IMG/VR virus record: IMGVR_UViG_3300042523_000876
Coordinates: 1 to 30,120 of that record
Direction: 5' to 3' (one strand)
Source of the DNA: a virus
Length of the DNA: 30,120 nucleotides
A program made the translations under genes and the position numbers. Shown here in pieces: positions 2,004-29,737 of this stretch (its first letter is position 1; each line of letters begins with the position of its first letter). The notes under the pieces are model-generated. The model saw only the letters and a program-made list of their open reading frames with translations. It did not search any database and was not told the DNA's origin.

Positions 2004-3758
2004 TTAAGTGATTAGGAAAGGATAGGGCGCGGTTTCACCGTCATAGTGTAAATACAGCGTCTCACCCGTCCCGGTCAGTGTAACGGTAGCAGTATCGTCA
2101 GTAGCATTAAGATACTGAGAGCCAGACGAAACATAGCTGAAGCTAAACAGGTAGCCGCCTACGCTGACTTTATACTTACCTGCAGTCCAATCTGCAGCGG
2201 TTGTGCCGCCCGTCCAGCCAAAGCCCGTAGCATAATAGCCCATACTCCAATAGCCCTGACCAGAGACTACAGACAAAGCCTGCGCCATAGTCTGCTTATA
2301 GGTAAGCCCGGTAGCCGGAGCAGTGCTGAGGGTAGTAGAGTCTGGGAAGGTAATCCCCGCTGGGGTAATGGACGTGCCGCCAGCTGAATTGTAAGCCCTG
2401 ACCTGATTATACTCCACAGTAGCACCCTGCGTAGTGTCGCTAGTGAGCTGCACCCCAAAACCCCAGCCGCCTACCTCAGAGTCATTAGTGCCGTCAGCTA
2501 GGGTAATGATAGCGCTGCTATTCATAGCCCCGCCAGACAAGGGAAGCTTGCTGCCCGTCATACCGTCTACCTCAGTCTTAGAGTAGACGCTAAGGTTAGT
2601 GCGCGCGGTAGTAGCGTTTACTTCACTGAGGTCGTTTGCGATCTGCAAATAAAGCCCGTTTGCAATCCCTTCCGTAAGCACCGGGTCAAGGGTCACAGGG
2701 TTTACCGCAGCCTCATCAATAACCGCGCTACGCAGGGTGCAGGGGATTTGCAGGGCAGTCAGGGTATCACCCCCGCTGCTTATCTCCACCTCTAGGGTAG
2801 TCTCAATAGACTCAGCCCCGTCCAGCAGGCTGATAGCGCTGCTAGTGTTAATGTCCAAGCTGCCAGCGTAGCCGCTAAAGGAAAGCAGACCAGACCCGTC
2901 AGCGGTCAGTCCGGCAGTGTCAGGCTGGACAGCGCAGCTAATGTCATAGGCATAAGCGCCCACCTGCTGAACAGTCACCTTATCAGCCAGCGCGCCAGCA
3001 TTAAGGAAGCTCTGAACCTCAGCTGCAGTAGCCCCCAAGGGGATACCGCCCGTGCTTACGTCAGTCCCGGTAAGCGCGTCAAAGCTCAGGCTGAATGTGC
3101 CGCCCTTAGGGGCAGGGCTAATGTTCAGGCGGTAGGCAACCTTAGTGCCGTCCCAAGCCTGCAGCGTAGTAACCGTAGGGGTGCTAGCGCTGGTGGGGGT
3201 AAAGCTGGTAGCCAGCGCAGCTACGGTCTGCTGCAGGTGGATCAGGACAATCTCAGGCAGCAGGCTAGTCCCTTCCTGCAGGACAGAAACCCCCACAGTG
3301 CTGAGGGGAATAAGGTTGCCAGAGTCAGCAGTGAAAGCTGCCCGGTCACCGTTATTGTTAAACTTAATAGCGTAGTTATCACCTACCTTGCTAACGGTAA
3401 CGTCCCCAGCGCTGCCAATAGAAGCCAGCTGATTTAGCCGGGTCTGCAGCATAGAAGCTGTAATGTTATAGTCTAGGGGCTGGGTAGTATCCCCGCCAAA
3501 GGTAAGGGTAAAGTGACCAGCTGTAGGGCTGCTATCAATTTGACCCACGGCAACCTTGATACCCAGACCAGCAGGGCTAGGGACTTCCTGCCGGGGGAAG
3601 CTAGCTAGCCCGGTATCCTCTACCAGATAGAGCTCTAGGTTGCACTGATCCCCAAGGTAAAAGCTAGGGTTAGTGATAGGGCTGGTGCTGCTAAAGGTAG
3701 GGAAAGCGCGCCCAGCTTTGGCATCAATAAACAGCTTAAGGGAGGTAGGCAGTGCCAT
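2004..3758 (-). CDS. Large tail fibre or baseplate protein with an internal duplication
   Basis: 584 residues. Two related beta-rich segments, at roughly residues 78-180 and 216-335, each open with a G-x-F-x-L-x-F strand (GHFTLTFGG and GTFSLSFDA), then a helix with a VTV strand, and close with a Leu/Ile-rich segment before an LHL or LEVEI strand, suggesting a duplicated domain. Around residue 395 is YSKTEVDGMTGSKLPLSGG, a pattern common in the neck of phage tail fibres. The C-terminal third is rich in Gly, Tyr, Ser and Thr. It lies behind a copy of the repeated junction motif (3763-3784). The fibre role is inferred from composition and place; the enzymatic or receptor details are unknown. Confidence 0.75.
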   Translation of the reverse strand: MALPTSLKLFIDAKAGRAFPTFSSTSPITNPSFYLGDQCNLELYLVEDTGLASFPRQEVPSPAGLGIKVAVGQIDSSPTAGHFTLTFGGDTTQPLDYNITASMLQTRLNQLASIGSAGDVTVSKVGDNYAIKFNNNGDRAAFTADSGNLIPLSTVGVSVLQEGTSLLPEIVLIHLQQTVAALATSFTPTSASTPTVTTLQAWDGTKVAYRLNISPAPKGGTFSLSFDALTGTDVSTGGIPLGATAAEVQSFLNAGALADKVTVQQVGAYAYDISCAVQPDTAGLTADGSGLLSFSGYAGSLDINTSSAISLLDGAESIETTLEVEISSGGDTLTALQIPCTLRSAVIDEAAVNPVTLDPVLTEGIANGLYLQIANDLSEVNATTARTNLSVYSKTEVDGMTGSKLPLSGGAMNSSAIITLADGTNDSEVGGWGFGVQLTSDTTQGATVEYNQVRAYNSAGGTSITPAGITFPDSTTLSTAPATGLTYKQTMAQALSVVSGQGYWSMGYYATGFGWTGGTTAADWTAGKYKVSVGGYLFSFSYVSSGSQYLNATDDTATVTLTGTGETLYLHYDGETAPYPFLIT

Positions 3759-3762
3759 AGTC

Positions 3763-3784
3763 TTTATTATGCCAGCAGGTCAAA
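3763..3784 (-). promoter_or_regulatory. Repeated gene-junction motif, copy E
   Basis: The minus strand reads TTTGACCTGCTGGCATAATA, starting right after the stop codon of the 302-aa tail gene and ending about 5 bases before the ATG of the 584-aa fibre gene. Four relatives sit at 7299-7320, 8453-8475, 11791-11810 and 14461-14480. TTGACC resembles a sigma70 -35 box, but a -10 box at normal spacing would fall in the start codon, so its nature is open. Confidence 0.6.
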
Positions 3785-3785
3785 G

Positions 3786-4694
3786 CTAGCTAGTGGCATC
3801 AGGGCTGACAGTGGTTAAGACAACCTGCCCCCAGCCTACCCATTTGTCTTCCCCACCTGTGACGCTATAGGTAGCGGTAGGGTAAGGGTAGGGGTATGTC
3901 CCCTCTACATAGTCTATGTAGTTTTGCTGGGTCACCGTATAGGTAATAGGCACTTGGGTAACGGTAGGCGCAGCTACTACATAGTCATAGCCTGTGCCGT
4001 TAAAGACCCAGCTAGCTGTAGCTTCCAGCTTCTCTATAAAGCCCGTATAAGTCCTGCCTACAAATAGGGGCAAGGGGCAGGTAATGTAGTTATTAATCAC
4101 CAGATCTACCGGGGACAGTGTGGGCGGGGGTGTAGGTGGGCTAGTCCCGGGAGGGTCAGAGCTATAACCGTTCAGCCCGTAGATAGTAGAAAGGTAGCTG
4201 GTAGGTGTATACAGCTGACCCCATACGGTGAAAATGCCGCCAGCTGAGCTGGGGGTGTTATCTAAGTAGGGTGACGGTATGGCTATGCAGTGCGCGCTTG
4301 TCATAGGGCTAGCCGGAAAAGCGTTGTATGATGCAGGATAAGCAAAACTGCCGTGAATAAAATAATCACTTACCCAGCTATAGGTATCCTGATCAAAAAC
4401 AATGGCAGTGCTGTTATACCCTATCACACTGTGAAGGGGCATAATAAACATACGGTTTCCGTATGCGCCATTAGCTGCAGAGCCTCCCTGAAAGCTGCTA
4501 GAGTAGAGTCCCCAAGTCCTTAGACCGCTACCGTCTACTTCCTCATTAGGCTTACCCGTGCCGCCTGTATGTCTGTTAGTCTTAACATAGACTAGCCCCC
4601 TATACTGAACCACCGTAGTAGCTATACCAGCTTCCCAAGGTTCAGGAAAAGTAGAGCTATAAGGGTAGAAACCGTAAGGGTATACCTCAGACAT
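3786..4694 (-). CDS. Minor tail / tip protein, tyrosine-rich
   Basis: 302 residues, unusually rich in Tyr, Pro, Ser and Thr, starting with a YPYGFYPYSSTFPEPW segment. A proline linker (GTSPPTPPPTLSP, near residue 188) splits the protein into an N-terminal domain with many short strands and a C-terminal domain ending in a Tyr/Pro-rich stretch (GTYPYPYPTATYSV). The start overlaps the stop of the gene before by 8 bases (ATGTCTGA). I do not recognise the family. The place between tip genes and fibre genes suggests a virion tip or fibre-anchoring protein. Confidence 0.7.
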   Translation of the reverse strand: MSEVYPYGFYPYSSTFPEPWEAGIATTVVQYRGLVYVKTNRHTGGTGKPNEEVDGSGLRTWGLYSSSFQGGSAANGAYGNRMFIMPLHSVIGYNSTAIVFDQDTYSWVSDYFIHGSFAYPASYNAFPASPMTSAHCIAIPSPYLDNTPSSAGGIFTVWGQLYTPTSYLSTIYGLNGYSSDPPGTSPPTPPPTLSPVDLVINNYITCPLPLFVGRTYTGFIEKLEATASWVFNGTGYDYVVAAPTVTQVPITYTVTQQNYIDYVEGTYPYPYPTATYSVTGGEDKWVGWGQVVLTTVSPDATS

Positions 4695-5160
4695 TTAGCC
4701 AATAGAATAGAGCGCCTGAAGATCCATAGGCTACCCGGGAAACAATAAGGGAACGGTTAACCGCCTGATAGATCTGCAGGCTGTTGCCCGTCTTAGTGAC
4801 CGTAGCTAGGGTAATGTGACCCGTAGTAGAAGTGTCAGCAGGCAGACTAGCTGCAAACTCCACAGCGGCAGTAGCCGGGAACACCTGACCTGTAGCGCGG
4901 GTAACCTTAATGTAGACTACCCCTGAGCTAGTAACCGTCAGGTGTGGAGCTGTGTTAGCGTCTAGGTCTGTCCCTGAGATTTTAGGCACTCTACCGTTAA
5001 CCGTCCCGGGGAACACCTTAACCGCAGGGCTTCCGTTAACTACCGTGCTATAAACCTCTAGGGGTGTGCGCCTGCGCCCGGGGGTATCCACTACAAAGGA
5101 CATACCCCTATTGTCTGAGCTAAACGTATACCCCACCCCCTGATTAATTTTCTGACTCAT
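4687..5160 (-). CDS. Tail tip / fibre adaptor candidate, 157 aa
   Basis: 157 residues with a beta-rich pattern: a basic patch near the start (TPGRRRTPLEV), then strands such as HLTVTSSGVVYIKVTRA and HITLATVTK. The start overlaps the preceding stop as TAATG and the end overlaps the next start, so it is in a translationally coupled string 5897-3786. No recognised domain. Such short beta proteins between tape measure and fibres often serve as tip subunits or fibre adaptors; this is inference from location. Confidence 0.65.
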   Translation of the reverse strand: MSQKINQGVGYTFSSDNRGMSFVVDTPGRRRTPLEVYSTVVNGSPAVKVFPGTVNGRVPKISGTDLDANTAPHLTVTSSGVVYIKVTRATGQVFPATAAVEFAASLPADTSTTGHITLATVTKTGNSLQIYQAVNRSLIVSRVAYGSSGALFYWLNV

Positions 5161-5897
5161 TAGTTGTGAGCCTCATAAACAAGCCCGTGCCAGCCAGCCT
5201 GACTAACCCTGATAGTGAAACGGACTTTATAAATGTTAGCGTATTGTTCGTAGGCGCAGCCCGTCATAAGGGCAGCGCGCGTATGGTATTTGCTCAGGGC
5301 AGTCATAATGGTTGGCACTATCATAGACTCAGCTCCCACGATCTTAGCAAAAGTCTTCCCTACCATTTTCTGATTATCCCTAAGATACTCAGCGCTGCTA
5401 GTGTAGTAAGTCCCGGTTACCTGAATGTCAGGGGCTAGGAAGGAAGTAATCCCTACCAGCGCCTTGTCTACAGCCTCAGCGTCAGTCTCAGGGAATGACT
5501 TAGTAGAAGCGTCCCAGCCCAGATCCTTAAGCGCCTTGCCCGTATCCCCGGCAGTCCCCTTGTAAAACTTGGGGTGCGCTTGGATAGGCGCGGTATTCAG
5601 CGCCACGTCACCTGTAATTTCAAGTTTAGTAATTTGCCCCGTCTCTATTCCAACATAGTCAGCGTTAATGATGGCTACCCCATTGTCATTAACCGTATAG
5701 CTGGACTTATGGCAGAGCAGCTTCCCGTTTTTGGGGTGAGCTTCATTCTCCTTAGGCTTCTTAGCTTCCACTACTTCTGCGTCACAGACAAAGGTTAGCC
5801 GGGAAGTCAGCAACCCCCGCCCGTCATTCTCAATAGTCCACCCGGGCTGAAGCTCGAGCGTCTTAGATGCGTTACCCTTAATGATGATTTTACCCAT
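5160..5897 (-). CDS. Distal tail / baseplate-type protein, 245 aa
   Basis: First gene after the tape measure, 245 residues, separated by 5 bases. The N-terminus (GKIIIKGNASKTLELQPGW) and the middle show alternating strands; the C-terminal part (residues 150-245) has MVGKTFAKIVGAESMIVP and ends RFTIRVSQAGWHGLVYEAHN. By position it corresponds to the distal tail protein of siphoviruses, the hub linking tube to tip. There is no motif that proves this. The overlap with the next gene suggests coupled expression of tip components. Confidence 0.65.
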   Translation of the reverse strand: MGKIIIKGNASKTLELQPGWTIENDGRGLLTSRLTFVCDAEVVEAKKPKENEAHPKNGKLLCHKSSYTVNDNGVAIINADYVGIETGQITKLEITGDVALNTAPIQAHPKFYKGTAGDTGKALKDLGWDASTKSFPETDAEAVDKALVGITSFLAPDIQVTGTYYTSSAEYLRDNQKMVGKTFAKIVGAESMIVPTIMTALSKYHTRAALMTGCAYEQYANIYKVRFTIRVSQAGWHGLVYEAHN

Positions 5898-5902
5898 AAA
5901 GT

Positions 5903-7285
5903 TTAAGCCATAAAGCTGTTACCCGCCAGCACACTAGGTTTAGTGAAGTCCACCTGCGGCACTTCCGGCAGCGTCTTAGTGTTAAGCTTTTCCAGCTCAA
6001 TCAGCATACGCTTGTTAATGTCCAGAGTCTCCTGAGGAATGTTGCTGCCTAGGCTGGTAAGGCTCTCGCCCATCAGCGCGCCCCCGATCTCCCTCAGGCT
6101 GGATACGGTCAGCTTCTCAGGCTTCTTAGCCATAGCTGTAGCCTCAGCTTCAATAGCGTCCCCTAGCTCCTTACGGCGCTTTTCATCAGCCTTAGCAGCT
6201 TCCTTGGCTGCATCATCCTTAGCTTTCTCAGAGTCCTTTAGACCGTCTTCCACCTGCTTAGCGTCATCCTTTGCAATTTGCTCCCGTTCCTTTTCAACGC
6301 GCTTAGCCTCATCAGCAGCAGCTTTGCTGGAAGCGTCAGCCGCCCTGACCGCAGCAGCCCGGGCTTCATTAGCTGCCCGTTCCTCAGCTTTTTTCTTAGC
6401 TGCGCGCTCAGCCAGCAGCTTACCTACAGCTTCCTGCACAGCTACGTCAGAAGACATAAACCCTGCTTTAGATTTCATAGTTTCCCTAGTCCCCGGGTCA
6501 TTTTCAAAGCCTGCTCTGATTTGCCCAAACTGCACACCTATCTTACCGGCTTCTGCGTCAGTCTCTAGAAACCTTTTAGTGGCTGCTTCCCTAGCGTCAT
6601 TATACTCCTTACGCGCTGCAGCTTTTCTTTCTTCCGCTTTAGCCGCGCGTAAAACTGCAGCTTCCTCTTCCGTAAGCCCCTCAGTATTAACAAAGCCTTT
6701 CTTAAGCTCAATACCCTCCTTAAGAGCAGGCAGCAGCTCCTTAGCCAAGGTGTCACCTAGCAGCGCGCTAGCCATTTGCAGGGAGTCAGTCTCACCGTTA
6801 GCACCCTTCAGCGCCTTTGCCATAGCTTCGATAGCATCAATAGCTTTAACGCTGCCCTTAGCCAGATCCTCAGAAGCAAAACCCAGAGCCTCTAGCACAG
6901 CGCGCTGCGGACTCCCGGCTGACCGGGCAGCTTCTAATACCTTAGTCATTTCAACGTAGAGCTTAGAGACTTTGGAGATACCTACCCCAGACTCATCAGC
7001 TGCACCCTTAAGGCGCTGAAACTCATCAACGCTAACCCCAATGTCAGCGGCTGCGTCTTTCAACCCGGCAGCGTTGTCTACCGCTTCCTTTACCCTAGCC
7101 TTGTATTCCTCAATAGCTGTGCCAATGGCGCTAATACCCGTCTGCAGCAGGGCAAGCGGGGCGGCTACGGAAAGGAAGCTTTTAGCTATGTCGCTGCCAA
7201 AGCTCTTAACTTTCTTTTGCACGGTTTCTACCGCCTTGCTCGCCTGATCCTTAGCGAAAATAGAAAACTCTAGGCTGTCGCTCAT
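5903..7285 (-). CDS. Tape measure protein (short)
   Basis: 460 residues. The N-terminus (residues 1-60) has a SLEFSIFAKDQASKAVETVQ amphipathic helix and a hydrophobic stretch (AKSFLSVAAPLALLQTGI), followed by GLKDAAADIGVSVDEFQRLK, a pattern typical of phage tape measure proteins. Residues 235-385 are an Ala/Lys/Glu/Asp-rich, almost continuous coiled coil. The C-terminus has DVTFTKPSVL-like sequence for hub contact. It lies between the tail assembly gene and the tip genes, as expected. The family's rule of about 0.15 nm per residue would predict a tail near 70 nm, if all of it spans the tube. A tRNA-Ser gene and a copy of the junction motif precede it. Confidence 0.82.
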   Translation of the reverse strand: MSDSLEFSIFAKDQASKAVETVQKKVKSFGSDIAKSFLSVAAPLALLQTGISAIGTAIEEYKARVKEAVDNAAGLKDAAADIGVSVDEFQRLKGAADESGVGISKVSKLYVEMTKVLEAARSAGSPQRAVLEALGFASEDLAKGSVKAIDAIEAMAKALKGANGETDSLQMASALLGDTLAKELLPALKEGIELKKGFVNTEGLTEEEAAVLRAAKAEERKAAARKEYNDAREAATKRFLETDAEAGKIGVQFGQIRAGFENDPGTRETMKSKAGFMSSDVAVQEAVGKLLAERAAKKKAEERAANEARAAAVRAADASSKAAADEAKRVEKEREQIAKDDAKQVEDGLKDSEKAKDDAAKEAAKADEKRRKELGDAIEAEATAMAKKPEKLTVSSLREIGGALMGESLTSLGSNIPQETLDINKRMLIELEKLNTKTLPEVPQVDFTKPSVLAGNSFMA

Positions 7286-7298
7286 TTGGGTTAATTCC

Positions 7299-7320
7299 TT
7301 AACTGTGCCAGCAGGTCAAT
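7299..7320 (-). promoter_or_regulatory. Repeated gene-junction motif, copy D
   Basis: The minus strand reads ATTGACCTGCTGGCACAGTT, about 14-35 bases before the tape measure ATG and directly downstream of tRNA-Ser. It matches copy E (3763-3784) most closely in its CTGCTGGCA core. Confidence 0.55.
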
Positions 7321-7338
7321 TAGCTGGGCAGGATAGGG

Positions 7339-7423
7339 TAGAGGGGAGGGGATTTGAACCCCTGAGGGTGTTACCCCTACCCGCCTAGCAAACGGGCGCA
7401 TTAAGCCACTCTGCCACCCCTCT
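7339..7423 (-). tRNA. tRNA-Ser (anticodon GCU, reads AGC/AGU)
   Basis: A full class II cloverleaf on the minus strand: acceptor AGAGGGG (7417-7423) pairs with CCCCTCT (7340-7346); the anticodon stem CCCGT/GCGGG closes the loop TTGCTAG; the long variable arm folds as GGGT-AAC-ACCC; the T arm is AGGGG-TTCAAAT-CCCCT. The discriminator is A and no CCA is encoded. It starts 14 bases after the tail-assembly stop codon, inside the late operon. AGC is a common serine codon in these genes, so a boost to AGC/AGU decoding is plausible. Confidence 0.95.
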
Positions 7424-7436
7424 ATTATCCCTATCC

Positions 7437-8036
7437 TTACCGGGCTGTCTTCCTGCCCTGCCTAGCCTGTTCCAGCTCTGCTACTGTTGGCAAGGTCTGG
7501 TTTTTGATCTGCTCCATCAATTCCTCATCATCAGTAGTAAGCAGCTCAATCTTAGCCCCAGCCTGTATACTAAAGACGGTGGACAGCCAGACTGCCTTAG
7601 CCTCAGGCATAGTCATAGCCTCAGTGTAGGTTATACCGTTCCTGACTAGGTTACAAATCACTGACAGCTGCCAAGGGACATTTGAGCTGCCGCTGCTCTG
7701 TCTGTCCTTACGCTCATAAAATTGGGGGAATGTATCTGCCGTGCTAGTGTATCTGACAAAGGCTAAGCAGGCGCGCTGCAGGTAATCCCTAGACAGCTGC
7801 AGCCTTAGGCTAAGCCATTTGTCCTGCCAGCTGGGGCGGTCTATAGTTTCGTCAGCGCAGATCTTAAGGGCTATAATTAGGTCTGCCGGGGCTATCTCCC
7901 GGTCAGGCTTCATAAAGGGGGAGTCTATAGCTTCTAAGAAAATCCTATGTTTAAGGCTAAAGGGCTTAAGTAATTTGCCCGCTACCCTAGTCCTGCCCGG
8001 TATCAGGTAAGCATTAAAAAAGCGCTGGTCTGCCAT
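7437..8036 (-). CDS. Tail assembly chaperone candidate
   Basis: 199 residues, mostly alpha-helical and charged, between the tail tube and the tape measure where lambda has G/GT. The central part (residues 60-165) has LWLSTVFSIQ and EAMTMPEAKAV segments like the helical chaperones that coat tape measure proteins. I see no second overlapping frame for a G/GT-type frameshift product, since a tRNA gene follows 14 bases after the stop. The ATG sits 5 bases after a TTATCT that lies 17 bases from TTGACC (8042-8070), so this transcript could be nearly leaderless. Confidence 0.6.
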   Translation of the reverse strand: MADQRFFNAYLIPGRTRVAGKLLKPFSLKHRIFLEAIDSPFMKPDREIAPADLIIALKICADETIDRPSWQDKWLSLRLQLSRDYLQRACLAFVRYTSTADTFPQFYERKDRQSSGSSNVPWQLSVICNLVRNGITYTEAMTMPEAKAVWLSTVFSIQAGAKIELLTTDDEELMEQIKNQTLPTVAELEQARQGRKTAR

Positions 8037-8041
8037 ACCGC

Positions 8042-8070
8042 AGATAACCAGCGCCTTTATAGCGGGTCAA
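8042..8070 (-). promoter_or_regulatory. Candidate promoter of the tail assembly gene
   Basis: The minus strand has TTGACC (8065-8070), a 17-base spacer and TTATCT (8042-8047). The spacing is ideal for a sigma70-type promoter; the ATG at 8036 is only 5 bases downstream, so an initiation about 7 bases after the -10 would give a leaderless or nearly leaderless mRNA. Confidence 0.35.
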
Positions 8071-8083
8071 TTATTGAACGGGC

Positions 8084-8434
8084 TTAGCTGGTAATGTTTT
8101 CGTAGTCCACAGCGCTAAGGCTGATACGCATAAAACCCTTAGCCTCCCCCCGTTCCTCTACGCTAACAATGTGTCCGGCTGTAAAGGCAATACCGTTACC
8201 CGTAAAACTAAGGGTGTCAGTGGGGTTAGCAGTGTAGCTAGTAGGCACTAGACCCTCAAGGGTGAGGTTAACGCGCAGGTCAGAGTAGCGGACTCCAATA
8301 ACCTCGCCCTGCTGGTTCAGGATCTCATCAGCATTAGCATAGGTCTTAGTCACCGTATAGCTGGTGACGGTAAGCCCGGTGACTGTGCCTGCAATACCCC
8401 AAATGTGGGCAGTGCCTTTGGTTACGGAAGCCAT
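8084..8434 (-). CDS. Major tail tube protein candidate
   Basis: 116 residues, almost entirely alternating beta strands (for example TVTGLTVTSYTVTKTYANAD and SDLRVNLTLEG), with an EILNQQGEVIG loop, consistent with the small tube-fold proteins of siphovirus tails. It sits after the tail terminator candidate and before the assembly chaperone, the usual place for the tube gene. The leader is 36 bases long and carries copy C of the junction motif. Length is short for a tube subunit but within range for the minimal fold. Confidence 0.65.
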   Translation of the reverse strand: MASVTKGTAHIWGIAGTVTGLTVTSYTVTKTYANADEILNQQGEVIGVRYSDLRVNLTLEGLVPTSYTANPTDTLSFTGNGIAFTAGHIVSVEERGEAKGFMRISLSAVDYENITS

Positions 8435-8452
8435 AGAAGTATTAGGTTAGAT

Positions 8453-8475
8453 TTAACTATGCAGCTCAGGTCAAA
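8453..8475 (-). promoter_or_regulatory. Repeated gene-junction motif, copy C
   Basis: The minus strand reads TTTGACCTGAGCTGCATAGT. Its TGA also forms the stop codon of the upstream tail terminator gene (8471-8473). The tube gene ATG is about 19 bases beyond the motif. Confidence 0.55.
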
Positions 8476-8905
8476 CGGGGGGCAGGACGATTAAGCAGTC
8501 ATAGGTCAGGCTGGTCATAAAAGCGCGCTCTGCGGTTTCCTCATTTAGCCCGGTCATAGTATTATCATAGCAGCTGGCATCACCTATGGAGTTAAAGCTA
8601 GCCTTTACCTGAGCTACATCGTCCAGCGTCCCCATAGCTTCCTGCACAGCGTCCCGGTGATTAGTCTGGGTCTGATCGTCTATCTGAGTAAAGACCCCCA
8701 CCTTAACCCGGCAGACGTAGTTACCCAGACCCTGCGGAAGCTCAGGGGGGAAGCTGGCAGACTCACAGCTAACAATAATGCTGGGCAAGGTGAGCTTGGC
8801 AGAGTCACAGCCCTTAAAGACCGTATAGGCGCTAAGGCTGGTATTGGCAGAAAGCACGGCAGTTAGCGCGTCTTCCACAATGTTAAGAGGGGATTTAGAA
8901 GCCAT
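8471..8905 (-). CDS. Tail terminator / completion protein candidate (lambda U position)
   Basis: 144 residues with an N-terminal helix (LNIVEDALTAVLSAN), a short LPSIIVSCES strand, then CRVKVGVFTQ, a helix (HRDAVQEAMGTLDD), and a C-terminal strand TSLTYDCLIVLPPV. This alpha/beta arrangement is that of small tail terminator proteins. The gene lies just before the tube gene. It begins with ATG in the context TAACCTATG. Confidence 0.6.
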   Translation of the reverse strand: MASKSPLNIVEDALTAVLSANTSLSAYTVFKGCDSAKLTLPSIIVSCESASFPPELPQGLGNYVCRVKVGVFTQIDDQTQTNHRDAVQEAMGTLDDVAQVKASFNSIGDASCYDNTMTGLNEETAERAFMTSLTYDCLIVLPPV

Positions 8906-8908
8906 AGG

Positions 8909-9874
8909 TTAGGTAGGTGTTTGACCAGCGTTAAACTTTTTAAGGGCAGCGCGCATCAAATGATTAAGGCGCTTCTGGGACTTACCGCGCCTAGCCATAA
9001 GGACATAGTTTTTAGTCCCGGCTGCGTAGCCCCTTCCAAAGATGTTACCAACAAGGTTGCGGACTACTAGGGTCTGCTCCCCGGTAGCTGGGTTTTGCCC
9101 GGTCATTTCAACCTGACCGTTAGTAGTCTTGTGCCTGCTGATCCATTCAGGGACTCTACGCAGTCCAAACTGTTTAGGGACTCCATTGACTACAGGCACG
9201 GGCAGCTTGCTGATACAGTCCAGCCAGCCAGCCTTAAGCCAGCCTACGCGCTGCTGCCGTTTCTTAATGTAGGCTTTAAGGTCAGACTCAGAAGCAAAGG
9301 TATAGCCAGCCTCACCCTTAACCTTACCGTCTTTACCAATAGCCCCGTTTTTGCGTATACGCCCCTTATAGAGCTTACGCAGCCTATTGTGCCGCGCTTC
9401 CAGCTGAGCAGCGTTAACGGTCTGGTAGTCCCGGCTGCCGTTCCATTTCCTCAGCAGGGACTTAGCCCGTTCAAAGGCGCGGTCACCGTTAGTGTCTGCC
9501 CAGATCTTCTGAATAATGCCGGAGCTGCTGGGCGGTTTGCCCTGCCGCCACTTATCAAACTTAGCCCTATCCTGCCGCTTAGAGTTAACGGCAGCAGCCA
9601 GCTGCTTACTGTCTAGCTGGACAATGCTGAGAATGTCTAGGGCTACGGCAAAGTTACCCCAAGTCTGGGCAATCTTCTTATCACCCTTACCGCCTGCTGC
9701 CCCGTCTAGGGGTGGGCTGTAGTTAAGGGCTTCCCGGCAGGTCAGGGCTGCTTCCTCTTTTCCTAGGTCAGCCATCAGCTGCTTTTTGTATTCCTGAAAA
9801 TTAGACATACGCGCCCCTAGTGCTTCAGCTGTGCGCCTGTTCACTTGGACGGTTATACCTGAGCTGCCAAACAT
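8909..9874 (-). CDS. Head-tail junction or minor tail protein, 321 aa, basic
   Basis: 321 residues, strongly basic, with Lys/Arg clusters through the middle (residues 145-205) and a helical, basic C-terminus (RRGKSQKRLNHLMRAALKK). The ATG overlaps the previous stop as TGATG. By order it occupies the place of lambda Z or HK97 gp10-type neck proteins, but it is about twice their length. I see no enzymatic motif. The extra length, mostly a basic insertion, is unexplained. Confidence 0.6.
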   Translation of the reverse strand: MFGSSGITVQVNRRTAEALGARMSNFQEYKKQLMADLGKEEAALTCREALNYSPPLDGAAGGKGDKKIAQTWGNFAVALDILSIVQLDSKQLAAAVNSKRQDRAKFDKWRQGKPPSSSGIIQKIWADTNGDRAFERAKSLLRKWNGSRDYQTVNAAQLEARHNRLRKLYKGRIRKNGAIGKDGKVKGEAGYTFASESDLKAYIKKRQQRVGWLKAGWLDCISKLPVPVVNGVPKQFGLRRVPEWISRHKTTNGQVEMTGQNPATGEQTLVVRNLVGNIFGRGYAAGTKNYVLMARRGKSQKRLNHLMRAALKKFNAGQTPT

Positions 9875-10203
9875 CAGCGCTGGTCAGCGTCCTGCACCTG
9901 CAGGGTAAGGTAGGGGTCACCCGGGTTATAGCTAATGCTGCTCACCCGGTAAGTCCTGCCGTTATAGGTCAGGGTCTTTCCGATCTGGTAATGAGAGCTA
10001 GCCGCCAGCAGCGCGGTAGTAGCTGGCAGGCTAACGCTAATGCTGACCTGCTCCATAATGCCCCCCGCCTGCAGCTGCTCCTGAAGTGAAGCCTGCCCCA
10101 CGGCAGCGTTATAGCTTACCCCATTAATCACAACGGTCTGCCCAATTTCCGCGCAGTTAAGCACAGCGTCAGCCAGCATCATAGCAGCTAGGTTAGCGTC
10201 CAT
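9874..10203 (-). CDS. Head-tail joining protein candidate (lambda FII position)
   Basis: 109 residues from the ATG at 10201-10203; a TTG 21 bases upstream is in frame but less likely. N-terminal helix DANLAAMMLADAVLN, then a VVINGVSYNAAVG strand pair, then a C-terminal sheet with YQIGKTLTYNGRTYRVSSIS and PYLTLQVQDAD, as in small beta-barrel neck proteins. It is the first gene after the terminator that follows the capsid gene, and it overlaps the next gene as TGATG. Confidence 0.6.
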   Translation of the reverse strand: MDANLAAMMLADAVLNCAEIGQTVVINGVSYNAAVGQASLQEQLQAGGIMEQVSISVSLPATTALLAASSHYQIGKTLTYNGRTYRVSSISYNPGDPYLTLQVQDADQR

Positions 10204-10345
10204 TACTAATGCAGCCCCAGACAAACCCGGGCTGACCGGGCGGCTGGCAGCTCAGCCTTGCCCCCTGCCTTAGCCCTAGGCTGGCTTTGAGGGGTCAGGG
10301 GGTATCAGGGTAGCCCCCAGCCCATACCCCCACCTAGGAACGGCA
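10204..10345 (-). other. Leader region before the neck genes, no gene seen
   Basis: About 140 bases between the capsid terminator and the neck gene, rich in C and G runs (several CCCCC/GGGGG blocks and CCTAGG). I see no open frame worth calling and no clear promoter, though expression of the neck and tail genes after the terminator requires read-through or a promoter here. Confidence 0.4.
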
Positions 10346-10386
10346 GCAAACAAAAGCCCCCGCCTAGGGGTCACCTAGACAGGGGC
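10346..10386 (-). terminator. Intrinsic terminator downstream of the capsid gene
   Basis: The minus-strand RNA reads GCCCC, TGT, CTAGG, a TGACC loop, CCTAG, GCG, GGGGC, then TTTTGTTTG. Two stacked helices (outer GCCCC/GGGGC at 10382-10386 and 10356-10360; inner CTAGG/CCTAG) are followed by a U-rich tail, the classic intrinsic terminator. It sits about 28 bases after the capsid stop, between head and neck genes, and would lower transcription of tail genes relative to capsid. Confidence 0.75.
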
Positions 10387-10395
10387 GTAAGCTTG

Positions 10396-10413
10396 GCTTA
10401 GATCAGGCTAAGC
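10396..10413 (-). other. Hairpin immediately after the capsid stop codon
   Basis: GCTTAG-CCTGAT-CTAAGC begins on the base following the capsid TGA. It lacks a U tract, so it may protect the capsid mRNA 3' end or assist the terminator just downstream. Confidence 0.5.
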
Positions 10414-11292
10414 TCAGGCGGTCTTAATCCGCTTCAAGCTTGTCGTGCGCGCCGGGCTGACCCCGAAACGAACACTCGCGGTAAAGCGCACGATACCGTC
10501 AGTGCCTTGCGAGCGCAGCACCTGAACAGACAGACCAGACTGATCAACAGCCTGCGCAACGTCACCGGGGAACATAGACGCATTAGGCAGCGCGGAGGCA
10601 ATCGCCAGCGCATCAGCGCCACAAGCCCAGCCAGCCAAGTTTTCCGAATTGGTCGGAAGGTCGCTGAACTCAAAGACATTGAAGCCAGCAACCTGACCAA
10701 TTTGACCGGAGCTGATAAGGGAAGACTGACCAGCGCCATTGAACGGGGCGGTAAGCGTAGCGTCCTTACGGAGAGCGCCAGCGTAAGCACCGTTAAGGAT
10801 AAGCGCGCGGGGGTCAGCAGCCTTAGCGTCATTAAGGTCAGTGTTCAGATCCACAACCTGACCGTAGTTGAAGTTAGCAGCGGTAATGACTTCGTTAGCG
10901 CTGAAGTTAGCGTTAACAACGGCAGCACCGATCAGACCGTGAACGGTCTTAGTAAGCTGGTTAATGGCTTCCGGGACGAAAGCGTTAGCCAGATACTGCT
11001 CACCGTATTCCCCGATTTCATCAGGGCTAAAGTCCTTAGTGCTGTGGTAGTGGCGGAGCGTCACCGTGGCAGCCGTCAGAGTGCTGGTGTCGGCTTCGTG
11101 GTAACCGCCATTAGTCTTAGAAAACTCTTTAGCAGAGCCACCAGAGACAAGGGAAACGGTAACCAGCTTGCCCGTGGAGGCAGGCACAAGGTTAGTGGAG
11201 AAAGCGCTGAGGACAGCCAAGCGCCCCTTAAGACCCGCAAGGATCACTTCGGAGAGCGCAGCCGGAGCAGCGACAAGGGAATTAGTAGCCAT
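10414..11292 (-). CDS. Major capsid protein (HK97/P22-type fold inferred)
   Basis: 292 residues. The N-terminus (SEVILAGLKGRLAVLSAFS) is a helix followed by a long beta segment, then TVTLRHYHSTKDFSPDEIGEY and a helix-rich spine (residues 105-130), then RALILNGAYAGALRK and a QIGQVAGFNVFEFSDLP strand, as in P22-like coat proteins. The ATG is in a CTACTATG context without a Shine-Dalgarno. It follows protease and scaffold genes, as in lambda, and is followed by a hairpin and an intrinsic terminator, in line with very high expression. Confidence 0.85.
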   Translation of the reverse strand: MATNSLVAAPAALSEVILAGLKGRLAVLSAFSTNLVPASTGKLVTVSLVSGGSAKEFSKTNGGYHEADTSTLTAATVTLRHYHSTKDFSPDEIGEYGEQYLANAFVPEAINQLTKTVHGLIGAAVVNANFSANEVITAANFNYGQVVDLNTDLNDAKAADPRALILNGAYAGALRKDATLTAPFNGAGQSSLISSGQIGQVAGFNVFEFSDLPTNSENLAGWACGADALAIASALPNASMFPGDVAQAVDQSGLSVQVLRSQGTDGIVRFTASVRFGVSPARTTSLKRIKTA

Positions 11293-11329
11293 AGTAGTAT
11301 TGAGTTAGTTAGAGAAAGGTTAGGTAAAG

Positions 11330-11788
11330 TTACGAAAGGATAGCAGACTTATGAGCCTGAAAGAAAGCAGCGCGCTCAGGGCTGGGCTTCATAGCCAGAA
11401 ACTGCTTTTTGATTTCATCAGCAGACTTCTTTTCATCAGCAGCAGCCTTAGCTTCATCAGCCGGGGAGATAGCCGCAGCTTCAATCCCCACACTGCGGAC
11501 AATCTTAGCAGCTTCCTTAGTGGCGCTGATCTGGTTAGCCAGCGCGTCAGCAAGCTGCTTCTTAAGCTCAGTGGCTTCTGTCTCAGCAGCCAGAAGCTTA
11601 GCGCTAGCGTCAGCCAGCTGGGTCTTAACCTCAGCCAGCTGGGTATCAGCGGCAGAAAGGCTAGCCACCTTTTCAGCAGCCAGCTTCTCAAAGCTAGCCT
11701 GCATTTCCGAAAGCTCAGCCTTAGAAGCGGCAAGCTCCTGAACGGACGCAGCCAGCTTGTCTTCAGTGGTCATAATGTCTTTAGCCAT
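11330..11788 (-). CDS. Scaffold candidate (coiled coil)
   Basis: 152 residues. Residues 8-105 form an almost continuous Ala/Leu/Lys/Glu coiled coil with heptad-like spacing; the C-terminus (EIKKQFLAMKPSPERAAFFQ) looks like a short helical tail that may dock on capsid protein. It lies between the prohead protease and the major capsid gene, where lambda-like phages encode scaffold (Nu3), here as a separate gene and not nested in the protease. The protease would be expected to degrade it on maturation. Confidence 0.75.
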   Translation of the reverse strand: MAKDIMTTEDKLAASVQELAASKAELSEMQASFEKLAAEKVASLSAADTQLAEVKTQLADASAKLLAAETEATELKKQLADALANQISATKEAAKIVRSVGIEAAAISPADEAKAAADEKKSADEIKKQFLAMKPSPERAAFFQAHKSAILS

Positions 11789-11810
11789 TTGTTATGCAGC
11801 TTAGGTCAAA
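11779..11810 (-). repeat. 32-bp direct repeat with junction motif, copy A
   Basis: Identical over 32 bases to 14449-14480. It covers the motif TTTGACCTAAGCTGCATAAC, the AAATG start and the first codons (Met-Ala-Lys) of the scaffold candidate. Copy B does the same for the gpW-like gene. Confidence 0.85.
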
Positions 11811-11830
11811 TAGAGTCTAAACAGGCGCGC

Positions 11831-12679
11831 TCAGGACTCAGCCCGGTTAGTGCCTTTCTTAAGGCTGTTAGCCTGCGCCTTACCCCCCACAGCTTCAGCC
11901 CCTTCCAGCTGGATAAGCAGCGCCTTAATGCTGGGGCTAATGCCCGTAGCCAGACCCTTAGCGGCAGCTTCCCGCCCGGTAAGGCTAATGCCCGTCAGGT
12001 CAGACTCCTTAACCAGCTTGCGCTTCTGCATAACGTCAGCCTTAAAGCGCGCGGCTGTAGCCATAACGGAAGCCTGCAGGTGATTGTGCTGCGCTTCAGT
12101 GATAGGCGCGCCCGGGACTCCAATACCCTTAAGCTCATCAGATCGGTAGACGGTAACGGTCAAACCGTTAGCCTTAGCCTTTTCAGAGCTGTCCACTGAA
12201 ACACCGAAAACGCCCACACTTCCAATACTCCCAGACCCGGGGACAACTACCCGGTCAGCAGCAGAAGCCAGCCAATAGGCAGCGCTATTAATGTTAGACC
12301 CGTAGGCTACGGTTTCAACAGGCAGGCTGCGGATCTGGTCTGCCAATTCCTCCACACCGTCCACCGTCCCCCCGTCACTTTCAATGTGGAAGACAATACG
12401 CGCAGGCTTGCTGGCAAGGGCAGCGTCTATCTGGTCACTAATGGTTTCTACGTCAGCAGCTCCAATAGCCTCAAGGGGACTAAGCCCCTTGCCGATCATA
12501 CCCATAATAGGAATGACCACAGTAGACCCCACCGTATAGGGCTTAGGCTTCTCCCCGAAAATCTGGGTAATGAGATCAGTAAGCCCAGCCTTTTGCTTAA
12601 GGTCAATGTGCTGCTGAGCTAGCTGGTAATCCACCAGAAAGGGCTTTGCCCCGTTAATGGCTTTGAGTAAGTTACGCAT
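11831..12679 (-). CDS. Prohead protease, S49/SppA-like (lambda C type)
   Basis: 282 residues from the ATG at 12677-12679 (context TATCCTATG); an upstream in-frame start would overlap the portal gene and lacks family similarity. Features of S49 peptidases are visible: a VVIPIMGMIGKG strand near residue 57, an ARIVFHIESDGGTVDGVEE segment (residues 99-117), a catalytic-serine segment SNINSAAYWLAS (near 132-143) and ADRVVVPGSGSIGSVGV after it. It would cut scaffold and portal or capsid ends during head maturation. Gene order portal-protease-scaffold-capsid is that of lambda B-C-Nu3-E. Confidence 0.88.
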   Translation of the reverse strand: MRNLLKAINGAKPFLVDYQLAQQHIDLKQKAGLTDLITQIFGEKPKPYTVGSTVVIPIMGMIGKGLSPLEAIGAADVETISDQIDAALASKPARIVFHIESDGGTVDGVEELADQIRSLPVETVAYGSNINSAAYWLASAADRVVVPGSGSIGSVGVFGVSVDSSEKAKANGLTVTVYRSDELKGIGVPGAPITEAQHNHLQASVMATAARFKADVMQKRKLVKESDLTGISLTGREAAAKGLATGISPSIKALLIQLEGAEAVGGKAQANSLKKGTNRAES

Positions 12680-12704
12680 AGGATAAACAGTTTTTTGGTT
12701 TATG

Positions 12705-14195
12705 TTATTCAGTGTCAGGCTGGTTAGCAGGCTGCTGGGTTTCCATACCCTGCATAGCAACCTCAGCAGCGGTAGGCTTACCCTGACCGTCCTGCAGCCA
12801 ATTAAACCCGGGCTTATAAAGCATCCAAACGGGGATGCCCTCAGCCTTAGCCAGATCTACAATAAAGCGGAAGTCCTTAGCGCGCTTGCTCATTTCAGTC
12901 CTAAGATCCAGACCGCGCTGAGCGTAAAGCTCAGACATAGAGAGCAGACCCAGCTCTAGGTCAGCCCGGTCATTAGCCGCTTCCCGTCCAGCGTCTACGG
13001 TGATGCGCTTAGGGGTAGTCCAGCTGACAGCGGTAAAGTCACCGTCAGGCAGCTCCCCGTTGTCAATGGCTGTGCCAATAACGAAAGCCCAGACGGGCAA
13101 GCAAAGCTTCTCTATCAGAATAGCCTGATCCCGGCTAAAGCTGCGGTCAGCTTTGCTGGCAATCAGCCTCAGTCCTGCACCCCCCGCAGACCCGGGCGCG
13201 CTGGTAAACTCATAGGGCAATCCAGACCCGCGCGCTATGTCGCGCTGCACAGCCTCTAGGAAACCCGTAAAGGTAGGGCTGGGACGGTTAGAGGCTAGGC
13301 TGGTCAGGCTCTCGCCCGGTTCAAGCGCCAGCAGCTTACCGCCCATACGGGACGCAGTGGTTTCTAGGCTACCAGATCCAGCGCCCTGCAGCTCAGTCTT
13401 AAGGTTAGTGGGGATGAAACCGCCTGCCTTATTCAGCACCCGGGTTACGTCAGCGTCATTCCTGACAGCCAACATTTCCAGCTTTAGCAGCTCATCCTCT
13501 GATTGAATGTCCCCCCAGCTATGCTGCAGCAGGGGCAAGCCCCGGCTACCGCTGCAATAGTCCTGCTCTAGAATGTGGCAGACAGAGTTAGCCGGGACGG
13601 GCTTGCTGCTATTGTCACCCTGAATGACGTTAACGGAAACTACCCGCCCCTGACGGTCAAAGCTGATACCGTCCAGCATACCGCTAGGCACAGGCGCGTT
13701 AACCGGGTTACCTACCCGGTGGCTTTCCACCATTTGCACCTTAGGCTTACCGTCTTCCAAAACCTTCAAAACGAAAAAGTCCCCGTCCCGCTTCCAGCCC
13801 CGTTCACAAATCCGCAGCACTTCTGTAAAGCTGAAGCGCCCGGTAGAGTCGCAGGTGCGCGCCCAAGCCATAAAGTAAGCTTCATACTGCGCGGCTACAT
13901 CAGTGCGCGCTTCGTGGCTCTGGGGGGTAAACCCGTCCCCGCAGACATAGGTAACGTAGTCGTTAAGGATCTGCCGGACTAGTCCGCAGTTACGCTCCCC
14001 GTGGCGCAGCCGCTTAATCATTTCCACCCGGTCAGTGGGGGTGTAGTCTACGCTAAAGTCAGCGGCTGTCCCGTAGATCCGCGCGCGGTTAGAGCTAAAG
14101 CCTACGCTCTGGAATTGAGCAGACCCAGCTAGCTGCCGCTTCTTATTCCCGGTAGCTTTGATTTCACCAGCCTTAGGGGTTTTGTCTTTAGCCAT
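12705..14195 (-). CDS. Portal protein, lambda family
   Basis: 496 residues. Features of the lambda-type portal family: an N-terminal YTPTDRVEMIKRLRHGERNC segment near residue 50, a CERGWKRDGDFFVLKV stretch near 128-143, VESHRVGNP, a SRGLPLLQH motif near 213, and a RGSGLPYEFTS segment near 318. The C-terminus is flexible (Gln/Pro-rich). The twelve-subunit portal forms the DNA entry vertex and binds terminase. The ATG lies 5 bases from the stop of the gpW-like gene. Confidence 0.92.
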   Translation of the reverse strand: MAKDKTPKAGEIKATGNKKRQLAGSAQFQSVGFSSNRARIYGTAADFSVDYTPTDRVEMIKRLRHGERNCGLVRQILNDYVTYVCGDGFTPQSHEARTDVAAQYEAYFMAWARTCDSTGRFSFTEVLRICERGWKRDGDFFVLKVLEDGKPKVQMVESHRVGNPVNAPVPSGMLDGISFDRQGRVVSVNVIQGDNSSKPVPANSVCHILEQDYCSGSRGLPLLQHSWGDIQSEDELLKLEMLAVRNDADVTRVLNKAGGFIPTNLKTELQGAGSGSLETTASRMGGKLLALEPGESLTSLASNRPSPTFTGFLEAVQRDIARGSGLPYEFTSAPGSAGGAGLRLIASKADRSFSRDQAILIEKLCLPVWAFVIGTAIDNGELPDGDFTAVSWTTPKRITVDAGREAANDRADLELGLLSMSELYAQRGLDLRTEMSKRAKDFRFIVDLAKAEGIPVWMLYKPGFNWLQDGQGKPTAAEVAMQGMETQQPANQPDTE

Positions 14196-14200
14196 AAAGG

Positions 14201-14458
14201 TTAGTCAGCGTAGTTATCCCAATTAGTCCGAATAACCGTAGTGTCTTCAGTCATAGGATAAGCCTCAGGGTCTAGGATGTTAAGACTGTGATTAGCTTCC
14301 TGTAAACGCTCTAGGGCGGGGATAACCTGCTTACCTACGCTAGTGCCTGCAATACTGTAGCTAGTCACTGACGCGCCAGCGGTAACCTCAGCAAGCGCCT
14401 TAGTCCTGATAGCCAGCAGCTCAGGGATACTACACCCGTTGAAAATACCTTTAGCCAT
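14201..14458 (-). CDS. gpW-like head-tail joining protein
   Basis: 85 residues between terL and portal, exactly where lambda has W (68 residues). It has two helical parts (SIPELLAIRTKALAEVTAG and PALERLQEANHSLNIL) flanking a short polar loop with VTSYSIAGTSVGK, matching the small alpha-beta-alpha fold of gpW. It is a little longer than lambda gpW at its acidic C-terminus. gpW stabilises packaged heads and lets the tail attach. Confidence 0.75.
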   Translation of the reverse strand: MAKGIFNGCSIPELLAIRTKALAEVTAGASVTSYSIAGTSVGKQVIPALERLQEANHSLNILDPEAYPMTEDTTVIRTNWDNYAD

Positions 14459-14480
14459 TTGTTATGCAGCTTAGGTCAAA
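14449..14480 (-). repeat. 32-bp direct repeat with junction motif, copy B
   Basis: Identical over 32 bases to 11779-11810, covering the motif TTTGACCTAAGCTGCATAAC and the start of the gpW-like gene. It follows directly on the dyad-closed element at 14486-14561. Confidence 0.85.
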
Positions 14481-14485
14481 GGTGG

Positions 14486-14561
14486 GCGCAGCCTAGCCAT
14501 TACCCCACAACGGGAAACTGCGACCCCACAGCTTCCTTTAAGCATCATAACTAGGCTGCGC
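14486..14561 (-). ncRNA. Candidate structured RNA element between terL and the gpW-like gene
   Basis: A perfect 11-bp helix, GCGCAGCCTAG (14551-14561 as read on the minus strand) with CTAGGCTGCGC (14486-14496), encloses 54 bases. Inside is an 8-bp hairpin, GGAAGCTG and CAGTTTCC with the loop TGGGGTCG; one pair is G-U, which is a mismatch on the opposite strand, so the fold favours a minus-strand RNA. TGTGGGGT occurs twice in the interior. There is no U tract, so it is not a standard terminator. Leader, processing site or DNA site are all possible. Confidence 0.5.
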
Positions 14562-16422: not shown

Positions 16423-17005
16423 TGCTCAGCTCCTTTCTGACCTGCAGCGCCCAGCGGTCTAATACCTTTACCGCTACCTCAGGGCGGTCAGGGTTGCACC
16501 CCTCAGCGCAGTCCAAGCTCAGCTTATCCAGCCGCGCCACAAGCTCAGCAGCCAGCCTGCTGACAATAGCGTTATGTTCCGTAAGCCTAATGTATTCCCG
16601 GGCTTCCAGCGCGCGCCTCTTTTCCTCATCCTCTAGGTAGACTAGGGATTTGAGGCTAGAGTTATAGGCTGACTGAAGCTTACCCTGTGCAGGGTCGTTT
16701 CCTTCAATGGCAGCTAGGTAGACTTCCCGCGCCCGGTTAACTAGCGCCCGGTGCTGCCGTATGGCATCAGTCAGACTGTCAGCTATCAGTGACCTAATCA
16801 CCCCTTGACCCGGCACGGGCTGACCCTCAGCTGCCGGGACTGCTGACGGGCTGGCTACGGGCGGCAGCTTCCTGTGCCTGCCTGCGCGCTTCAGATCCAG
16901 AAAGCTGCGCGCTGCCTCTAGCTCTAATGGCATACCTGCCTTAACTAGTTTGCATACATAGCCCACTGATAGGTTAAGCTCTTTTGCCAGCTGTGCCTGC
17001 GTCAT
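16415..17005 (-). CDS. terS: Terminase small subunit, Nu1-like
   Basis: 196 residues. The N-terminus (TQAQLAKELNLSVGYVCKLV) is a winged helix-turn-helix as in lambda Nu1; a Pro/Arg-rich linker (residues 38-70) leads to a long helical part (72-190) that would oligomerise and bind the large subunit. The ATG follows an A/T-rich leader (AATTAAATG) 27 bases beyond the dyad-closed element 17032-17144, which would be a natural binding site. Its stop is overlapped by the GTG of terL. Confidence 0.88.
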   Translation of the reverse strand: MTQAQLAKELNLSVGYVCKLVKAGMPLELEAARSFLDLKRAGRHRKLPPVASPSAVPAAEGQPVPGQGVIRSLIADSLTDAIRQHRALVNRAREVYLAAIEGNDPAQGKLQSAYNSSLKSLVYLEDEEKRRALEAREYIRLTEHNAIVSRLAAELVARLDKLSLDCAEGCNPDRPEVAVKVLDRWALQVRKELSSD

Positions 17006-17031
17006 TTAATTTGATTGGTTTAGAGTTTTAT

Positions 17032-17144
17032 GACGGCAGCTAGGCGGTCTTAATGCAAATCCCTTGCACCTTAACCTTTCCTAGCCGCGTTTTGGAGGAA
17101 ATCCCCGTTTTTTGTCGGTGGTGGATGAACCACGCGCTGCCGTC
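17032..17144 (-). other. 113-base dyad-closed element upstream of terS (cos site or structured RNA candidate)
   Basis: Perfect 9-bp inverted repeats GACGGCAGC (17136-17144) and GCTGCCGTC (17032-17040), as read on the minus strand, enclose 95 bases. Inside are a GTGGT-TCATCC-ACCAC hairpin (17118-17133), a TGCAA-GGGAT-TTGCA hairpin, and two mutually exclusive long-range pairings (GCGG/CCGC or TAGG/CCTA). No open frame fits. Being directly upstream of a Nu1-like gene, it is where lambda keeps cos, but structured leader RNA is an equal possibility. Confidence 0.5.
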
Positions 17145-17176
17145 CCCCCTCAAATAGATTTCTTTAGCCACCCTGT

Positions 17177-17755
17177 TTAGGATTGGGGGTTATAATTCTC
17201 AGGCGGTTTAGCTTCAGGATCAGCGCGCAGCGGAAACCAATCGATGCGCTGCACCAGCCCGGGGGCTTTCAGGCTAGCCGCCAGCAGCAGCTTCTTAGCT
17301 CTGACTGATACAGCCTGCTTAGTCAGACCCATACGCTTAGCTAGCTCTAGCTGTGTAGGGGCATCAGGGGTTTGCAGTATAATCCTGATTAAATCAAAGT
17401 GAGCCTGCACTGCCTTGTCAGGTGAAGCGCCCAGCATAGTCAGCAGATCACTGACAACCTCTAGCAGTCTCTCCCGGGTAACCCAGCTGTCAGTTTCAGT
17501 CTGAGCTTCCAGCCTGCGGGGGTCTGCCGTGCTAAAAGCGCTGTCATTTTCATACACAGGGAAAATGTTACGCGGCTGGGGCAGCTCCCGGTAGGGCAGC
17601 AACGGTGGATCTAGCGCGCGCAGCTCAGCCTGCTTATCAGCTGGCAGGCTAAAATAATAATTATCAAACGCTTTTTCTTCCTCAGTAAGCTCATTACCCT
17701 CCCTAAGCTGCTGCTGGTGGGCTTTAGTGCGAAAATTAGAGCGTATAGACCCCAC
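17177..17755 (-). CDS. Helix-turn-helix regulator candidate
   Basis: About 192 residues from a GTG at 17753-17755; no ATG is available near the front. A TTG at 17791 is in frame but lies inside the iteron array, so I prefer the GTG. The C-terminal third carries APTQLELAKRMGLTKQAVSV, a clear helix-turn-helix like those of sigma and MarR-type regulators; the first half is charged and lacks a known domain. The gene is the last before terS, so a control of late transcription or of the nearby repeats (17790-17854) is plausible. Not an identifiable sigma factor. Confidence 0.65.
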   Translation of the reverse strand: MGSIRSNFRTKAHQQQLREGNELTEEEKAFDNYYFSLPADKQAELRALDPPLLPYRELPQPRNIFPVYENDSAFSTADPRRLEAQTETDSWVTRERLLEVVSDLLTMLGASPDKAVQAHFDLIRIILQTPDAPTQLELAKRMGLTKQAVSVRAKKLLLAASLKAPGLVQRIDWFPLRADPEAKPPENYNPQS

Positions 17756-17787
17756 TTTAATAGCGTTAATTACTATTAAAGTTAGGG

Positions 17788-17856
17788 TCAATCTAACAAT
17801 TTTACTAAGGTTTAGCCTTAATCTAACAACTTTAGGATTAATCTAACAACTTTACC
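17788..17856 (-). repeat. Three phased direct repeats (iteron-like)
   Basis: TTGTTAGATT(A/G)A, preceded by AA(A/G), occurs three times on the minus strand, with the plus-strand core AATCTAACAA starting at 17790, 17820 and 17840. Spacings of 30 and 20 bases are whole helical turns, so a protein could bind all on one face. The right-hand copy encodes the last codons and stop (Lys-Leu-Leu-Asp-stop) of the 110-aa gene. The array is the leader of the helix-turn-helix gene: operator or part of an origin. Confidence 0.7.
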
Positions 17857-24029: not shown

Positions 24030-24101
24030 AGCCCCCTACAGGACTTGAACCTGCAGCCTCCTGTTTACAAAACAGGCGCACAGCCATTGTGCTAAGGGGG
24101 C
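24030..24101 (-). tRNA. tRNA-Thr (anticodon UGU, reads ACA and ACG)
   Basis: Complete cloverleaf on the minus strand: acceptor GCCCCCT (24095-24101) with AGGGGGC (24031-24037); anticodon stem CCTGT/ACAGG with loop TTTGTAA; T arm GCAGG-TTCAAGT-CCTGT. The discriminator is U and the CCA end is not encoded. It lies between two early genes, 5 bases from the 80-aa gene stop. Together with tRNA-Ser(GCU) it is one of two phage tRNAs. Confidence 0.95.
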
Positions 24102-29524: not shown

Positions 29525-29737
29525 TTATTTATTAAGTAGGTTGTTAAGCTTAGCCTCTAGCTGGGCTATGCGCTCAGCGTCTGTTAACTGTGCAGTGCAG
29601 GTCAACTCAGCGCAGCTCAGCAGGTATTCGTTAGTCATTTCAGGGTTACCAATAACCTGCCTGCCGTCAGAGCAGGTAAGCGTTGTGCCGTCAGCTGAGC
29701 GCGTCCAGATCAGCCCGGTAGAGTCAGTGATAGTCAT
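29525..29737 (-). CDS. Small tail-associated protein, 70 aa
   Basis: 70 residues between the big fibre gene and the lysis genes. N-terminal half is beta-rich (GLIWTRSADGTTLTCSDGRQ); the C-terminal half is a short coiled coil, LTDAERIAQLEAKLNNLLNK, likely forming a trimer or dimer. It may be a fibre-assembly chaperone or fibre cap, as small coiled-coil genes after fibre genes often are. Start in the context TACCTATG. Confidence 0.6.
   Translation of the reverse strand: MTITDSTGLIWTRSADGTTLTCSDGRQVIGNPEMTNEYLLSCAELTCTAQLTDAERIAQLEAKLNNLLNK

Follow-up and report, generated by a model that had tools for sequence, protein, structure and literature searches.

What is the function of a short sequence that recurs directly before five virion genes of a phage genome? 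The window, by which we mean the whole stretch of DNA that was analysed, is 30120 bases long and makes up one virus record, with a 99% match between its first and its last 129 bases. Nearly all of its large genes are located on the minus strand, along which the replication genes come first, followed by terminase, gpW-like gene, portal, protease, scaffold, capsid, tail tube, tape measure and fibre. The tape measure label of ORF 5903-7285 is backed by a PHROG match (E 1.3e-12), the fibre ORF 2004-3758 has a weak PHROG match to 'major tail protein' (2.3e-8), the scaffold ORF has weak PHROG matches, and no PHROG match was found for the gpW-like and tail tube ORFs; the names 'gpW-like', 'tail tube' and 'scaffold' were taken from the first-pass annotation and rest on position. 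A megablast search of a phage collection with the window returned no match and no close isolate. The host is probably a member of Verrucomicrobiota, because the capsid protein has its best match in Verrucomicrobia phage P8625 (29%) and a terminase 56% identical is present on one bacterial contig, from an Opitutales MAG. Many ORFs of the window have start codons directly after CCT or ACT (e.g. TAA CCT ATG), without a visible Shine-Dalgarno sequence.

The five recurrent sites reported in the first-pass annotation were all confirmed, each on the minus strand and just before an ORF start:

14459-14480, minus strand: motif copy with N7 spacing, before ORF 14201-14458 (gpW-like by position), kept at 19 of 20 sites in relatives
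11789-11810, minus strand: motif copy with N7 spacing, before ORF 11330-11788 (scaffold by position), kept at 24 of 24 sites with a widened search window
8454-8475, minus strand: motif copy with N7 spacing, before ORF 8084-8434 (tail tube by position), kept at 23 of 23 sites
7300-7320, minus strand: motif copy with N6 spacing, before the tape measure ORF 5903-7285, kept at 19 of 20 sites
3764-3784, minus strand: motif copy with N6 spacing, before ORF 2004-3758 (fibre or tail protein), kept at 16 of 16 sites

The sequences are TTTGACCTAAGCTGCATAA at 14462-14480 and 11792-11810, TTTGACCTGAGCTGCATAG at 8457-8475, ATTGACCTGCTGGCACAGT at 7302-7320 (with 3 mismatches to the variant given previously) and TTTGACCTGCTGGCATAAT at 3766-3784, all read on the minus strand, and their common core is TTGAC, N6 or N7, GCA and N4, usually followed by TA. 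The copy at 8454-8475 overlaps the stop codon of ORF 8471-8905. TTGAC-N6/7-GCA has 6 matches in the window, all on the minus (coding) strand; in 200 runs of a first-order Markov model of that strand, core matches averaged 0.86 and reached 4 at most. The sixth match, from 29605 downwards, is inside ORF 29525-29737, was not found in any of the 3 relatives carrying that gene and is probably due to chance. The possibility that the motif folds into an RNA hairpin with a bulged A was also considered; by eye such a hairpin has at most 3 pairs, and the idea was dropped. A tRNA-Ser (gct) is encoded at 7336-7424 (minus strand), directly before the tape measure motif, and a tRNA-Thr (tgt) at 24030-24101 (minus strand); these tRNAs were the only matches of note in an Rfam scan.

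Relatives were collected by searches with the terminase, capsid, fibre and tape measure proteins. The core was present at 101 of 103 homologous junctions with distinct upstream sequences, as against 2 of 294 other gene starts in the same set, where duplicates were removed only if 60 nt were identical and the sites are therefore related rather than independent. This count leaves out L021, L068-L129, L066-L067 and a distant group (L011-L019), so that no locus fetched with the motif is included, and the search extended 42 nt past the extrapolated start for the scaffold gene, where misses were start errors, and 6 nt past the start for the other genes. Of the two misses, one at the gpW-like junction (L008) has one base different in the TTGAC box, and the other at the tape measure junction (L040) has a motif copy farther upstream. 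The downstream proteins of the relatives are 37-79% identical and the flanking bases are mostly unconserved. Absence of the motif at homologous junctions had been named in advance as the outcome that would count against it, and the reverse was found.

The spacing is fixed by junction, with N7 only at the gpW-like, scaffold and tail tube junctions and N6 only at the tape measure and fibre junctions (one of two tallies of these classes includes loci fetched with the motif itself), which places the box centres 10 or 11 bp apart, on either side of one DNA turn. The sixth base past GCA is A in 89 of 94 sites, and TA is conserved at that place in 70 of 94. The start codon follows at a distance of up to about 42 nt, the ATG being found as little as 5 nt past GCA. 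In the distant group the form is TTGCC-N7-nCA, as recognised by eye and after the fact. A scan of a viral collection with the strict form yielded 65 stretches, comprising 45 tail tube junctions of these phages, 16 copies of one unrelated coding sequence (judged from context) and 4 singles, and a literature search among open-licence PMC papers found no report of the motif. The motif is a real, strongly conserved element.

Known promoter classes were then compared with a set of 92 sites, which includes L021. A sigma70 -10 box was found 15-19 nt after TTGACN in none of the 92 sites, for which the shuffled mean of 12.2 is a rough null, as the motif and start-codon words fill that stretch. A -35 box 15-19 nt before CANNNN after the spacer was found in 18 of 92 sites, with no excess over the shuffled mean of 15.2 (sd 3.3). 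The sigma54 signature, a GG placed exactly 10 nt ahead of GC, was likewise found in 0 of 92 sites, and the N6 class also breaks the sigma54 spacing. Both the sigma70 and the sigma54 readings were thus ruled out on these sites, which agrees with the earlier remark that the motif is not simply sigma70. The accompanying remark that no phage RNA polymerase gene is seen also holds, since the longest ORF in the window (617 aa) is the terminase and no ORF in the list, from which some small ORFs remained unscanned, is long enough for a single-subunit phage RNA polymerase.

Two terminator-like hairpins stand out downstream of the motif-preceded genes:

10356-10386, minus strand: terminator-like hairpin and T run, after the major capsid gene 10414-11292, found in 42 of 42 relatives
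8018-8058, minus strand: terminator-like hairpin and T run, after the tail tube gene, found within 160 nt in 42 of 45 relatives

The same 160 nt were searched after every gene, for genes with at least 3 sequences, the distant group being left out and motif-fetched loci included. After all other genes such hairpins were found in 51 of 526 cases, the same as in shuffled sequence (51 of 526), and the helicase gene (5 of 9) was the only other gene standing out. The conserved blocks are thus motif-scaffold-capsid-terminator and motif-tail tube-terminator, and it is mainly because of them that a role of the motif in setting 5' ends at the level of transcription is preferred. The hairpin at 8018-8058 overlaps the start codon of ORF 7437-8036, which lies in its loop, and covers that start codon in 31 of 45 relatives; it may also affect translation of this ORF.

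A further structure is found at the first of the junctions:

14486-14561, minus strand: long hairpin in the interval that separates terL from the gpW-like gene; 6 nt lie between its end and the motif

By folding, this hairpin was recovered in nearly all relatives, with arms that differ widely in sequence yet remain paired; helices were chosen by maximal pairing, those of L013, L016, L067 and L106 appearing wrong or doubtful and the register being off in several rows. No such helix was found in L008, L035 and L090, and the hairpin matched no Rfam family. It may serve as an RNase III site or represent a small RNA. The motif lies 3-9 nt past its 3' arm in most rows. In the L040-L051 subgroup, a second motif copy without a start codon is present at the 5' edge of the hairpin in all 8 loci holding the region, and in 11 of 22 distinct rows this edge instead carries TTGAC-N16-(G/A)CA, a sequence that could serve as an ordinary -35 with a weak -10. 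The two arrangements put the start at different distances from GCA.

A candidate for the protein that reads the motif is encoded upstream of these genes:

17177-17791, minus strand: gene for an HTH protein between helicase and terS, conserved in relatives, candidate motif reader, start codon uncertain

Homologues of this ORF were found in 13 loci, including the distant group at 29%, and the C-terminal part of the protein shows similarity to HTH domains of the MarR type and of KorA, which for the window's protein is below the Pfam cut-offs. Late regulators are often located between the helicase and small terminase genes, and this gene is placed at the border of the replication and packaging genes. 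In the distant group both the HTH protein and the motif (TTGCC for TTGAC, by eye) differ. Position and conservation are suggestive, and only suggestive, of a motif reader. A sigma-like nature is not claimed, since a Foldseek search with one model returned only matches with E above 1, sigma factors among them, and Sigma70_r4 was detected in 3 of 13 members (best 0.071); the structure models were poor (pTM 0.36 and 0.38). Upstream of the gene, at 17773-17855, a GTTGTTAGATTAA-like repeat is present in three imperfect copies, possibly an operator or origin. An RG.STT.KK end, as in the relatives' HTH proteins, is encoded in the window in a different frame directly after the stop codon of the HTH gene (17005-17177, minus strand); this could mean that the window has a shortened gene, or that it is the DNA itself that is conserved there.

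Judged from these sequence features, the motif is probably, though by no means certainly, a compact late promoter. TTGAC-N6/7-GCA-N4-TA would be its recognition sequence, bound as double-stranded DNA with the two boxes about one helical turn apart, and RNA would start at the A six bases past GCA or within a very short distance of it. The gpW-like and scaffold messages would be leaderless or have very short leaders, and the leaders of the other genes would be some 6-40 nt long. The scaffold-capsid and tail tube messages would end at the conserved terminators, so that the most abundant virion proteins would get their own short units. Transcription would be carried out by the host RNA polymerase, redirected by a phage factor, perhaps the HTH protein of 17177-17791.

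Points in favour of a late promoter are the distribution of the core (101 of 103 against 2 of 294), the junction-fixed spacing, the A at the sixth base past GCA, the location of the copies on the coding strand and the fact that terminator-like hairpins follow precisely those genes with which motif-started units end. The copy at the hairpin without a start codon is a further one, as a promoter could stand there and a translation signal should not, and to these may be added the HTH gene at the border of replication and packaging and the TTGACA at late starts of P8625. The first-pass annotation had suggested, among other readings, a phage-type promoter or regulator site, and this is the suggestion best supported by the conservation, the terminator-bracketed units and the copy before a non-coding hairpin. 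Against a late promoter, the geometry fits no known holoenzyme and there is no RNA polymerase gene; a host -10 element would need to lie in GC-rich sequence with the ATG 5 nt past GCA; and a leader length from about 0 to 40 nt is permitted and left unexplained by a promoter. That the motif represents a new class of compact late promoter, of about 20 bp, with no usual -10, served by host polymerase and a phage HTH factor and giving leaderless virion messages, is a possible but doubtful extension. If the motif is a promoter, it would be one read by no known sigma factor or phage polymerase. Phages of Verrucomicrobiota are little studied, and such a promoter would offer a testable handle on how virion genes are switched on, with five defined sites, two spacing classes and one candidate protein available for a simple binding and 5'-end experiment.

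Alternatively, a long late transcript might be cut at the U-A that lies six bases beyond GCA, so that the virion genes and the hairpin would have defined 5' ends. TA is a dinucleotide prone to cleavage and is the one conserved in 70 of 94 sites, and the hairpin and the start codons both have the A at their 5' edge; double-stranded DNA is nevertheless the better fit to spacings of 6 and 7, which lie around one DNA turn, promoters are the better fit to terminators placed ahead of reinitiation points, and no nuclease gene was singled out, which leaves RNA processing unlikely. It is quite improbable that the motif is a translational operator, at which a protein bound to mRNA just before the start codons would regulate translation of the virion genes. 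It is near a start codon at all five junctions, like the start-associated sequences of Cluster K described in PMC3203893, but one copy precedes the hairpin without a start codon, the distance to the start reaches about 42 nt, and no conserved pairing of the motif's own was seen by eye.

We consider it very unlikely that the motif is a repressor or roadblock site like the mycobacteriophage stoperators, which are asymmetric, in one direction and at gene junctions. The asymmetry, single orientation and two boxes one turn apart would agree with such a site, and PMC9283540 reports a two-domain monomeric repressor with an asymmetric site; the motif, however, is confined to five virion junctions with none at early genes, and in the ORFs that were scanned neither an integrase nor an immunity repressor was noticed. 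A promoter of the host itself, read by a host sigma factor, is highly improbable: late starts of P8625 do carry TTGACA-type boxes, but none of 52 genomes from the order of the terminase-carrying bacterial contig, a putative host order, contains the strict motif, and a search with one mismatch allowed found it in 0 of 1 such genome. The earlier suggestion of a boundary for gene swapping was rejected, because the same orthologues stand in the same order beside the motif in relatives and the motif goes with the junction.

Compared with known systems, the motif resembles T7-like late promoters in being a contiguous block of about 20 bp before virion genes. T7-like promoters also start transcription just downstream and serve short units ended by terminators, features that are predicted here, and they differ in that no single-subunit RNA polymerase gene is present in the window and the motif sequence is unlike theirs. 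The stoperators of Cluster A mycobacteriophages are asymmetric sites in one orientation at gene junctions, and these three features are shared with the motif, which by contrast occurs only before virion genes, with no immunity system noticed in the ORFs scanned. Start-associated sequences of Cluster K mycobacteriophages, as described in PMC3203893, are asymmetric, repeated, immediately upstream of starts and conserved by gene family, and in these respects they are like the motif. Their sequence is given there as GGGATAGGAGCCC, from which the motif copies of the window differ, and the motif is further distinct in having two boxes, fixed spacing classes and a restriction to five virion junctions. 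In the distant relative P8625, TTGACA stands before several late starts, with a second box about 17 nt away, and 6 of 9 matches to the P8625 pattern are before starts; the pattern was recognised by eye and after the fact. The likeness consists of a box, TTGAC or TTGCC, at a short distance upstream of late gene starts, and the difference is that the box of P8625 is about 36 nt before the ATG and accompanied by a GTAT..ATAC palindrome, rather than by GCA at one turn.
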